From positions 1-40,855 of IMG/VR virus record IMGVR_UViG_3300005340_000054: 40,855 bases of DNA; one strand, given 5' to 3'. Below, piece by piece: positions 3,615-32,725 of this stretch (the stretch's first letter is position 1; the number at the start of each line of letters is the position of its first letter). Under the pieces are notes generated by a model that saw only the letters and a program-made list of their open reading frames with translations, searched no databases and had not been told where the DNA came from. The DNA comes from a virus. The position numbers and the translations under genes were made by a program.

Positions 3615-4006
3615 ACGAAATCCGGCCGTTCGCGCCGTTCTACCTGCGTACGCAGATGACGTCCACCGGTCAGGGGACGTCATCGCAGGCATTTCAGGGG
3701 CAGCAGGCCGCCAGCGTTACCGTGGCGGCATCGGGTACCGCGGCATCCAGTACGCAGTTCCCAGGCATGCCTTCGAACAGCATCGCCTACCAAGTGCAGA
3801 TCGCGAACCTGACCGACAAGTGGGCGTTCGTGAACTTCGGCGCGTTTGGCAACGTGCGCGCGGCGACAGTCACCGACTACCCGGTGGGGCCCGGCATGGT
3901 GCAGGTGGTGACCGTGGATCCGGAAGTGTCCGGCGCATCGGTCATTCTGACCGGCGCGGCCGGTGGCTCGACCTCTGTTATCTTCACCCGAGGGGCCGGC
4001 TCATAG
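3611..4006 (+). CDS. Hypothetical virion protein
   Basis: This 131-residue protein is rich in Ser, Thr, Val and Gly. The N-terminus (MNEIRPFAPFYLRTQM) is followed by a predicted beta domain. A block near residues 60-90 (QIANLTDKWAFVNFGAFGNV) resembles small phage surface proteins in overall style only. ATGA overlap with the preceding gene indicates co-translation with the head genes. No family was recognised. Confidence 0.65.
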   Translation: MNEIRPFAPFYLRTQMTSTGQGTSSQAFQGQQAASVTVAASGTAASSTQFPGMPSNSIAYQVQIANLTDKWAFVNFGAFGNVRAATVTDYPVGPGMVQVVTVDPEVSGASVILTGAAGGSTSVIFTRGAGS

Positions 4007-4022
4007 GGCCGGAACATGGCCC

Positions 4023-4448
4023 ATGAATCTTAAGTCAGGCGGCGGTCTTTCTTCATCGCAGGTCAATGATCAGATCATGGCCTGCATGTGCGCAATGGTG
4101 CAGCCGCCAGTCGCAAGGTCGCTGCTGTTCGATATGGCCTACCAGGCCAGCGACCCGACGAAGCCGACCGCCATCAGCATCGTGGTAGGTCTGGTCACCA
4201 ACATCACCATTGGCTCTGCTTCCAACACCGCAGAGCTTGTGATCGGCGCGACATCCGCCGTTTCTTCTGGAACGGGAGTACTCGCCGATACCTTTCGGAA
4301 TGATCTGAGCGTCACGCTGATCACGATCGGACTGACGCAGCGGCAAAAACTCATGGCATTCATTCCTGCCGGCTACTTCTTTGCGGTGCGCCGTACCGTT
4401 GGCACCGGAATCAGCATCATCTCCGCTTACGATCAGGCACTTTGCTGA
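4023..4448 (+). CDS. Hypothetical virion-associated protein
   Basis: This is a 141-residue protein starting MNLKSGGGLSSSQ. I chose ATG 4023 because it lies after the preceding stop and has a GGA element nine bases upstream. An in-frame GTG at 3963 would run far into the upstream gene. The product is beta-rich (residues 50-130, many T/I/V) and ends in cysteine. It is co-directional with head genes and its stop (TGA 4446-4448) shares a base with the next ATG. Its function is unknown. Confidence 0.65.
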   Translation: MNLKSGGGLSSSQVNDQIMACMCAMVQPPVARSLLFDMAYQASDPTKPTAISIVVGLVTNITIGSASNTAELVIGATSAVSSGTGVLADTFRNDLSVTLITIGLTQRQKLMAFIPAGYFFAVRRTVGTGISIISAYDQALC

Positions 4449-30191: not shown

Positions 30192-30412
30192 GCGCCGCCG
30201 AGAAGTGGCCACCTGATGCCTATCACCTCGCGCAATTGCAAGCGCAGCACCAGCACCTGACGCTGATGCCGGAGCTGGAACGCAAGCTGTGGGAGCTGCT
30301 GTTTGTGCGCGAGCTGGTACACAGCGTGCAAGGCAACGAGAGCCACCCGGCGTTGTTGCAGCGGCAGGATGAGATCAGGCGGCTGCTGACGGCGTATGGG
30401 GTGACGCTGTGA
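30188..30412 (+). CDS. Small helical protein before the helicase
   Basis: This 74-residue helical protein (HLAQLQAQHQHLTLMPELER, then LWELLFVRELVHSVQGN) has a GTG start overlapping the previous stop and a stop overlapping the VapE GTG. It may work with the helicase as a loader or accessory; this is inferred only from tight linkage. Confidence 0.6.
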   Translation: MSAAEKWPPDAYHLAQLQAQHQHLTLMPELERKLWELLFVRELVHSVQGNESHPALLQRQDEIRRLLTAYGVTL

Positions 30413-32076
30413 GCCTGGGCCATCTGCTCTCCGAGCGGCCCGAAGCCCCGATCCTGATCGTCAGCGACAATGCCTATGAGGCCGCCGCCAAGACCCTTTC
30501 GGGCTATATCGTCATCAGCCCGAGTCAATGGAATGGGGATGGCCTGGGCGCGCTACGCGGTCGCAAGGTGGATTTCTGGCCTGATGCGAACAGCTTGCCC
30601 GCCGCCCATGCGATGGCGCAGGAGATCGTCGCGGACTGCCAAAAGGTGCGTATATTGCGGCCGATCGATGCGCCAAGTTCCACGTGGAACATTGCCGAGG
30701 CCATTGCCGCGGGGTGGACCGTGGCGCAGATCAGGGAATGGGCGAAGGATCGCCTCACCCCCATCAGCGCGCTGGTCCGCCAAGTGCCCGCCTCGCGCAA
30801 GGTCTCGGCGGTCATCAAGGCCGAGGACCGGACCAAAGAGCAGCTGTGGGAGCAATTGGATCTGGCGCGCAATGAGCGCGGGCCTTACGCCACCGAAGCC
30901 AATGCGCTGAAGATCATCACCGCGCATCCGGCCTATGCCGGGAAAATCTGGTACGACGAGTTTGCCAACCGCCTCATGCTGGAAACAGAGCAGGGCGATG
31001 AGTCGTTAGATGAAATCCGCATGATCCAGATGCAGGTCTGGATGCAGCAGGCGCTGTGGCTGCCGAAGATGCCGCTGGTGGCGATTGAGCGGGCCTGCCG
31101 GATTGCGGGAGCGGCGAATCCCGTTCATCCGGTCCGGGAATGGCTTCAGGGCCTTGTATGGGACCAAACCGAGCGCCTGAGCACCTTCATGGCGGATGGC
31201 TTCGGCGCCGCCCAGAACGACTATACGGCGGCTGTGGGGCGGTGCTGGATTACGGCCATGGTGGCGCGCGTGATGCATCCGGGCTGTCAGGCAGACAACA
31301 TGCCGGTTTTCGAGGGGGCGCAGGGCATCCACAAGTCCACGGCGATGCGGATATTGGGCGGACCGTGGTTCACGGAGTCGAGCGAGGATCCGCTGAATGG
31401 CCGCAAGGATTTCCTGCTCGCGCTGCAGGGCAAGTGGCTGGTGGAGATTCCCGAGATGCACGCCATCGCCAGCCGCTTCAGCGGCATCGAGAAGATCAAG
31501 GCCATCATCAGCATCCGGGTGGATAGCTACCGCGTGCCCTACGGCCGCAATACCGAGGATTACCCGCGGCAGTGTGTGTTCGTCGGCACCACCAACGCCG
31601 ATGAATGGAACGCGGACCCCACCGGAGGACGGCGCTTCTGGCCCATCCGCTGCGGTGCAATCAACACCGAATACCTGACCCGCGAGCGCGAACAGTTGTT
31701 CGCCGAAGCTCTCGCCCGTTACCAGCGCGGCGAATCCTGGTGGGATGTGCCCGTCACCGACGCCGCCAAGGAGCAGGAGAATCGCCGCCAAAGCGATGCG
31801 TGGGAAGAGGTGATCGAACGCTACGTCACCCACTACCCAGACCGCCACGACATGAGCGTCGGATTGCGCTGGCATCCGCGCACACAGGATCTGGAAAAAC
31901 TGACCCTTCCGGAGCTACTGGGAGAGGCTTTAGGACTGCCAGAAGGACGTTGGGACAGAGCTTCGCAAATGCGCGTCAGTTCTTGCCTGACAGCTCTCGG
32001 ATGGCGTCGCGCACGGGTTACTACTGACACAGGCAGGAAATGGGCGTATGTCAAATATCCAAAACTGTTCGATTAG
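30409..32076 (+). CDS. VapE/VirE-type primase-helicase
   Basis: This is a 555-residue protein. The N-terminal 90 residues contain APILIVSDNAYEAAAKTLSG and SPSQW, like a reduced Toprim-type domain. The ATPase core has a Walker A at 302-311 (EGAQGIHKST), a Walker B near 350 (KWLVEIPEM), and the sensor/arginine region TTNADEWNADPTGGRRFW. This is the VirE pattern found in phage replication proteins. The C-terminal end (ASQMRVSSCLTALGWRRARV) is a winged-helix-like domain. It should unwind, and perhaps prime, phage DNA at the nearby origin candidate (32077-32285). Confidence 0.85.
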   Translation: MSLGHLLSERPEAPILIVSDNAYEAAAKTLSGYIVISPSQWNGDGLGALRGRKVDFWPDANSLPAAHAMAQEIVADCQKVRILRPIDAPSSTWNIAEAIAAGWTVAQIREWAKDRLTPISALVRQVPASRKVSAVIKAEDRTKEQLWEQLDLARNERGPYATEANALKIITAHPAYAGKIWYDEFANRLMLETEQGDESLDEIRMIQMQVWMQQALWLPKMPLVAIERACRIAGAANPVHPVREWLQGLVWDQTERLSTFMADGFGAAQNDYTAAVGRCWITAMVARVMHPGCQADNMPVFEGAQGIHKSTAMRILGGPWFTESSEDPLNGRKDFLLALQGKWLVEIPEMHAIASRFSGIEKIKAIISIRVDSYRVPYGRNTEDYPRQCVFVGTTNADEWNADPTGGRRFWPIRCGAINTEYLTREREQLFAEALARYQRGESWWDVPVTDAAKEQENRRQSDAWEEVIERYVTHYPDRHDMSVGLRWHPRTQDLEKLTLPELLGEALGLPEGRWDRASQMRVSSCLTALGWRRARVTTDTGRKWAYVKYPKLFD

Positions 32077-32285
32077 GTTGGGACAGGTTGAGACTGGTAT
32101 GGACGCAATGGGGCGAAGTGTCCCAACGTCCCAACGTCCCAACGGGGGTCTAAAACTCTGGCCCTGCGCGCGGGCGTGCGCATGGCAGACATCTATTATG
32201 GATAGGACAGGTTGGGACACTTTAGGACCGATGCTATGAAACAAGGCATTTGCGATGCGTCCCAACCTTGCACCCCGTTGGGACA
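32077..32285. other. Candidate replication origin with GTTGGGAC repeats
   Basis: Within 209 bp the motif GTTGGGAC(A) occurs at 32077-32085, 32211-32219 and 32277-32285. Its complement GTCCCAAC occurs at 32120-32127, 32128-32135 and 32136-32143 as three exact head-to-tail 8-bp copies, and again at 32259-32266. A degenerate copy lies at 32087-32095. An AT-rich TATTAT block (32194-32199) and a TGCGC-N8-GCGCA dyad (32165-32182) lie between the groups. Direct placement after the VapE helicase fits an iteron-type origin. The part from 32236 is also coding. Confidence 0.6.
32120..32143. repeat. Three tandem copies of GTCCCAAC
   Basis: Three perfect 8-bp units are joined without spacers. The 8-bp period is shorter than one helical turn, so neighbouring copies face different sides of the helix. 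They form the core of the candidate origin. Confidence 0.9.
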
Positions 32286-32460
32286 GGTGCCAGATGAGAT
32301 TGCAGAGGCCGCACGAGCGTTGCGTACCGCATTCGGCCCCTCGGTGCGCCTCCTCCGCGTCACCGGCTCAGTGGACTTAGGCAACCCCGCCTGGGACTGG
32401 TACTGCAGGGAGGTGGATGGTGAGAACGACAACAAACCGGGAGAGCGAAATGACGACTGA
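32236..32460 (+). CDS. Small hypothetical protein overlapping the repeat cluster
   Basis: This is a 74-residue protein starting MKQGICDASQPCTPLG, followed by VPDEIAEAARALRTAFGPSV and a strand (VRLLRVTGSVDL). Two copies of the GTTGGGAC motif (32259 and 32277) lie inside its first codons, so the coding sequence is constrained by the repeats. An in-frame TTG at 32212 is unlikely. No family was recognised. Confidence 0.55.
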   Translation: MKQGICDASQPCTPLGQVPDEIAEAARALRTAFGPSVRLLRVTGSVDLGNPAWDWYCREVDGENDNKPGERNDD

Positions 32461-32725
32461 CGACTTCGACGAGCAGCACATCCGCGAGCGCGGCGAGACC
32501 GACCCGCGGGCATCTCGCTTGGTGCTGGTGGGACTGTTGGTGTTTTGGGCGCTGGTGGCGTGGGTGTTGAGCGGCTGCCAGACCATCCGCGAGCACCCTC
32601 GCCTAGCGGCAGGTGCTGCGGCCGTGGTGGTCACCAGCATCGCGCTGTCGACCAACCACCGCGACTACCAGCCGGCGCCGGACATCAGGCTGCCCATACC
32701 ACCGACACGGGAGCTGGCGCGGTGA
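32450..32725 (+). CDS. Small membrane protein with lipobox-like end of span
   Basis: This 91-residue protein has an acidic N-terminal segment (TTDDFDEQHIRERGETDPRA), a membrane span (about 24-42: LVLVGLLVFWALVAWVLSGC) ending in a lipobox-like LSGC, a second weaker hydrophobic patch (LAAGAAAVVVTSIALS) and a Pro-rich tail. The long N-terminal lead makes normal lipoprotein processing uncertain. ATG 32450 follows GGAG. A spanin-type role is one option. Confidence 0.6.
   Translation: MTTDDFDEQHIRERGETDPRASRLVLVGLLVFWALVAWVLSGCQTIREHPRLAAGAAAVVVTSIALSTNHRDYQPAPDIRLPIPPTRELAR

Follow-up and report, generated by a model that had tools for sequence, protein, structure and literature searches.

Short repeats beside a VapE-family helicase gene form a candidate phage replication origin

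In the window, by which we mean the whole 40,855-base stretch of phage DNA analysed here, a cluster of the 8 nt word GTTGGGAC starts at the first base past the stop codon of a VapE-family helicase gene. This cluster is very probably the site at which the helicase docks to start genome copying. We assign a probability of roughly 0.85 to the following reading of the sequence: positions 32077-32284 would be the replication origin of the phage, and VapE, encoded immediately upstream, would use its C-terminal winged-helix-like domain to bind the GTTGGGAC iterons. The inverted arrays that flank a 57 bp spacer (32144-32200) would position two helicase rings, and these rings would melt the spacer and self-load for replication. 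Physical binding, melting of the spacer, the two rings and origin activity are all proposed by analogy with the SaPI Rep helicases. As one amino acid in the helicase tail changes in step with the word in one large group of relatives, the comparison, which covered ~300 related loci, suggests that this tail reads the word.

Results

The word cluster in the window

Eight exact copies of GTTGGGAC fall within 336 bp (31949-32284) and none in the rest of the 40,855-base record. In 100 dinucleotide shuffles of the whole record the mean was 0.99 copies, and no shuffle reached eight. The first-pass annotation had described seven exact copies after the helicase gene, in both orientations and at a density far above chance, and had proposed concentration of the word here as a check; the counts bear it out on each point. 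The seven copies within 32077-32284 start at 32077, 32211 and 32277 on the + strand and at 32120, 32128, 32136 and 32259 on the - strand. One-mismatch matches to GTTGGGAC in the rest of the record are at chance level (24 matches in all versus 27.5 expected). A relaxed pattern derived from the cluster copies is ~67-fold denser in the cluster than in the remaining record, a ratio that is descriptive only because the pattern was fitted to the same copies.

The first exact iteron (32077-32084, + strand) is followed by the degenerate copies GTTGAGAC (32087-32094, +) and GTATGGAC (32097-32104, +), which complete a run with a 10 bp period. The inner left array consists of three perfect tandem iterons with an 8 bp period on the - strand (32120-32143), exactly as annotated before. 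Across the spacer, the candidate unwinding region, the inner right array contains the degenerate GATAGGAC (32201-32208, +), a word shared with the relative L384, an exact iteron (32211-32218, +) and the degenerate TTTAGGAC (32221-32228, +), a second run with a 10 bp period. Two distal exact iterons, at 32259-32266 (-) and 32277-32284 (+), lie inside the possible ORF at 32236-32460, in agreement with the first reading, which had counted a single degenerate copy where we find four. The remaining exact copy (31949-31956, +) spans the codons R-W-D in the 3′ end of vapE and may be incidental. An internal R-W-D copy is also present in the vapE gene of L384 (GTTGGGACAGAGCC), which may point to a function or merely to conserved coding.

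The spacer has a G+C content of 61% overall, equal to the record average, and is not AT-rich as a whole; its last 22 bases are 45% G+C versus 74% for the first 38. A turn of the cumulative GC skew at 32.1 kb had been proposed as a further check. No such turn was found there, so that the skew lends no support to the origin reading; the minimum lies at ~26 kb, where it coincides with a flip in gene orientation.

Arrays beside VapE genes in other phages

In many phage lineages, short repeats are arrayed soon past the stop codon of the VapE helicase gene, with copies in both orientations flanking a spacer, and the word varies by lineage (GTTGGGACA, GTGGGACA, GGTGACA, GTTGGACA, TGTTGACA and others). 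Scanning viral sequences for three GTTGGGAC at short distances yielded 78 stretches, compared with 26 for the reversed word used as the control. Many of the 78 harbor 7-12 copies on both strands, either immediately past a VapE gene or ~2 kb from it. Part of the 78 matches (e.g. L001, L004 and L036), with single-orientation or dispersed copies, was set aside as probably unrelated. In L004 and L036, the copies of GTTGGGAC have a single orientation and are several hundred bases apart, and no VapE relative was found there.

A search seeded with the helicase instead of the motif recovered other VapE lineages with other words in the same place. An enriched 7-mer array was located within 550 bp past the stop codon in 26 of 35 VapE clusters, a fraction that is not an unbiased estimate because some of the 35 were fetched through the motif; the controls within the gene and upstream gave one each. 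When loci from viral contigs and bacterial genomes were added, the set comprised 301 loci with considerable redundancy, and 233 of these had an array within 4 kb. Since only exact words were scored, degenerate arrays such as that of L384 were missed; by this exact-word method, no array was detected for the relatives L110, L117, L175, L376 and L397 or for the weak relative Mica. Relatives of VapE were retrieved with alignment queries; single-protein queries of viral and genome contigs returned no VapE relatives, and no DNA similarity to phage records was found for 31900-32500.

We also inspected twelve annotated phage records individually, with hosts ranging from Staphylococcus to Bacteroides, and ten of them carry an array after vapE, each with its own words; VarioGold was weak and Mica, a poor relative, had none. 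Arrays lie in or near the noncoding gap past vapE in phages of Staphylococcus, Bacteroides, Listeria, Corynebacterium, Clostridioides, Paenibacillus, Yersinia, Pseudomonas and Marinobacter. A large alphaproteobacterial group (L007, L017, L034, L150 and similar loci) has its array 1-3.5 kb downstream with genes in between. A general rule that all words end in ACA was dropped because CGTTTAC and GTTGCATC do not fit.

The layout of the arrays is recurrent as well. The arrangement + / about 33-47 / - / about 20 / + was present in 64 of 108 loci, compared with a mean of 11.9 and a maximum of 21 after strand shuffling, and the distal iterons of the window show this spacing again as + / 47 / - / 19 / +. 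A step of 55-140 bp from - to + was found in 93 of the 108 relatives. The iteron-origin layout suggested by the first-pass annotation is thus supported by both the confinement of GTTGGGAC and the recurrence of arrays beside VapE. Its expectation that related phages with the same helicase would share the repeats holds for the presence of arrays; the word itself often differs, and some arrays are displaced by 1-3.5 kb.

The VapE protein and its C-terminal domain

VapE owes its name to an association with virulence, and primase is a frequent annotation for it; no recognisable primase domain was found in the window protein. The vapE gene (30409-32076, + strand) ends one base before the first iteron and encodes a 555 aa AAA+ helicase of the VapE family (PF05272; 1e-71, 241 bits with the Pfam cut-off at 25), which also matches PHROG 256, DNA helicase (4.5e-91). 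The structure 7PDS, entitled 'The structure of PriRep1 with dsDNA', is its only sequence relative in the PDB (1e-40) and its top fold match as well (2.8e-27). By homology to PriRep1, VapE may form hexamers and load itself. Genes for head, head-closure, DNA-ejection and terminase proteins are all present in the record, which therefore represents a phage rather than a satellite.

The AlphaFold2 model of the whole protein has a pLDDT of 90.7, and that of the C-terminal domain alone (residues 464-555, encoded at 31798-32073, +) has 88.1. In the model, this domain consists of helices and, after them, a beta hairpin, an architecture consistent with a winged helix; R536 is placed on the first strand of the hairpin. 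Its best match when searched alone is the equivalent part of PriRep1, a weak one (Foldseek E 0.08, probability 0.95). The model and the covariation in relatives described below make this domain the proposed reader of the iterons. For residues 1-118, sequence and model suggest a degenerate TOPRIM fold.

One helicase residue changes with the word

The alphaproteobacterial clade has two main word classes, GGTGAC versus GGGAC/GGAC. The first clue was that three helicases with GGTGAC have Q after W-x-R-Y near the C-terminus, where the others have R or K. L150, which has Q, was expected to have GGTGAC, and a GGTGAC array was found 1.8 kb downstream. Leaving aside 13 loci with words of neither class, all classifiable loci follow the rule without exception: 28 with Q have GGTGAC, and 114 with R or K have GGGAC/GGAC. 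The loci fetched after the rule had been formed (24 Q and 77 R/K) gave no exceptions either. The window VapE fits the expectation with R at the aligned position (R536) and GTTGGGAC as its word. The rule is limited to this clade, as Marinobacter PS3 (L081) has an apparent R in the column together with GGGGTGACC.

Among 48 non-redundant helicases, this column carries 0.98 bits of mutual information with the word, the highest of ~900 columns. On a helicase tree built from the core, with the C-terminal domain excluded, the residue changes nine times and the word nine times, and the six pairs of changes on supported branches all agree (sign test p 0.03). The helicases of L338 and L340 are 95.6% identical, and they differ in both the residue and the word.

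Such covariation could arise from a single exchangeable segment that carries both the residue and the array, with no direct contact between the two, which we regard as improbable. In most loci the array starts ~100 bp or less from the C-terminal codons, and since the two usually adjoin, recombination, common in phages, could swap them together. Were this so, the assignment of VapE as the reader would be weakened, but not that of the array as the origin. However, neighbouring columns of that segment show no such association with the word, the next best having 0.50 bits, and the link persists for arrays at a distance of 1-3 kb (e.g. L150/L227 and L233). In addition, R or K with G and Q with A are chemically sensible pairings.

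Which protein binds the repeats

The repeats might also constitute an origin bound by another phage or host protein, with VapE merely the helicase that is loaded there. Lambda-type systems, in which initiator and helicase are separate proteins, provide a precedent. We consider this distinctly improbable here. VapE was found by tblastn in 330 of 436 fetched loci, but none of seven other proteins of the window was found by the same search at the array loci. For the small protein encoded next to the array, the other binder suggested earlier, none of the fetched loci contains a relative, so that of these two the evidence points to VapE. Moreover, the word tracks one VapE residue, and the structural relative PriRep1, which has a similar C-terminal part, was solved with dsDNA.

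In our estimate, it is very improbable that a transcription regulator uses the repeats as operators or that they serve as arm sites for integration or packaging, although they lie between genes, with two copies overlapping the possible ORF, and attachment and cos sites can also carry repeats in both orientations. A scan of the region for promoters and terminators, the promoter search covering sigma-70-like sequences, detected nothing. Moreover, the common neighbour of the arrays is VapE, whatever lies downstream, and the large terminase gene is ~5 kb from the array.

The cluster strand folds better than its shuffles (z -5.4), which is to be expected of any set of inverted copies, and we rejected the hairpin as a real feature in favor of a by-product of the inverted copies. 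This folding would be the one argument for regarding the cluster as a hairpin artefact, as low-complexity repeats or as a product of chance, a view of negligible probability that is already contradicted by the absence of exact copies elsewhere in the record, the conservation across unrelated phages and the reversed-word control.

Discussion

Taken as the docking site of VapE, the array can be compared with known initiator systems. In phage lambda, the iterons are located inside the O gene, and O is not a helicase but recruits the host DnaB. The window resembles lambda O and its origin in combining iterons with a phage initiator, if VapE binds as proposed, but differs in that seven of its eight exact copies lie downstream of vapE and not inside it. 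PriRep1 (7PDS, deposited as 'Similar to D. nodosus vapE') belongs to the same helicase family and was solved with dsDNA; the C-terminal domain of the window protein, taken alone, matches it only weakly.

Of the known systems, the nearest is that of the SaPI Rep helicase, whose iterons also lie downstream (PMC7581432). In SaPI Rep helicases, the C-terminal domain recognises iterons that immediately follow the gene for the helicase (Ubeda et al., 2007, as cited in PMC7581432); SaPIbov1 Rep (DUF927) and SaPI5 Rep (Primase_Cterm/D5) are assigned to other helicase families (PMC7581432). In both SaPI and the window, the gene for an initiator-type helicase directly precedes an array of short iterons. 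Unlike the SaPI module, which sits on a phage-inducible satellite island, the window belongs to a tailed phage and has another word with copies in both orientations. The specificity for the origin resides in the C-terminal domain of SaPI Rep; the corresponding evidence here is covariation in relatives from the alphaproteobacterial clade. The SCCmec helicase Cch2 likewise binds repeats located past the gene that encodes it, and its isolated C-terminal domain binds specifically in vitro; its putative origin has three 5 nt iterons only, and its family is D5_N/Primase_Cterm (PMC7581432). Cch2 thus differs from the window in helicase family, in iteron number and length and in belonging to a host element instead of a phage.

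The part that may be novel is the one-residue specificity switch, the rest resembling the known SaPI Rep type. We lean slightly towards the broader view that VapE helicases together with their origins are a very widespread phage replication module. In this view, a few residues of the C-terminal wing would serve as a code, and a single change between Q and R/K would repeatedly have re-targeted the helicase to a new word. If so, the origin word, and hence the origin, would be predictable from the helicase sequence. Searches of the literature available to us, in which subscription papers were largely absent, found no description of iterons in VapE phages and no mapped origin for any VapE phage; the matches listed for GTTGGGAC were unrelated by title. 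A candidate origin is now offered for most of the VapE phages examined, with a word that the comparison ties to the C-terminal domain of the helicase itself. Origin recognition can be put to a direct test with natural pairs such as L338 and L340, and the compatibility of co-resident prophages or satellites that share a word could perhaps be predicted.

Two of the loci have peculiarities of their own. L264 (CP059262.1), titled Exiguobacterium profundum (MAG), contains a Rhodobacterales-type VapE, and this record may be misnamed or contaminated. In L429 (Staphylococcus phage vB_SauS_PHM), the region at 4001-4341 after vapE contains four copies each of GATGCAAC and GATACAAC, possibly representing one relaxed word or two sites.
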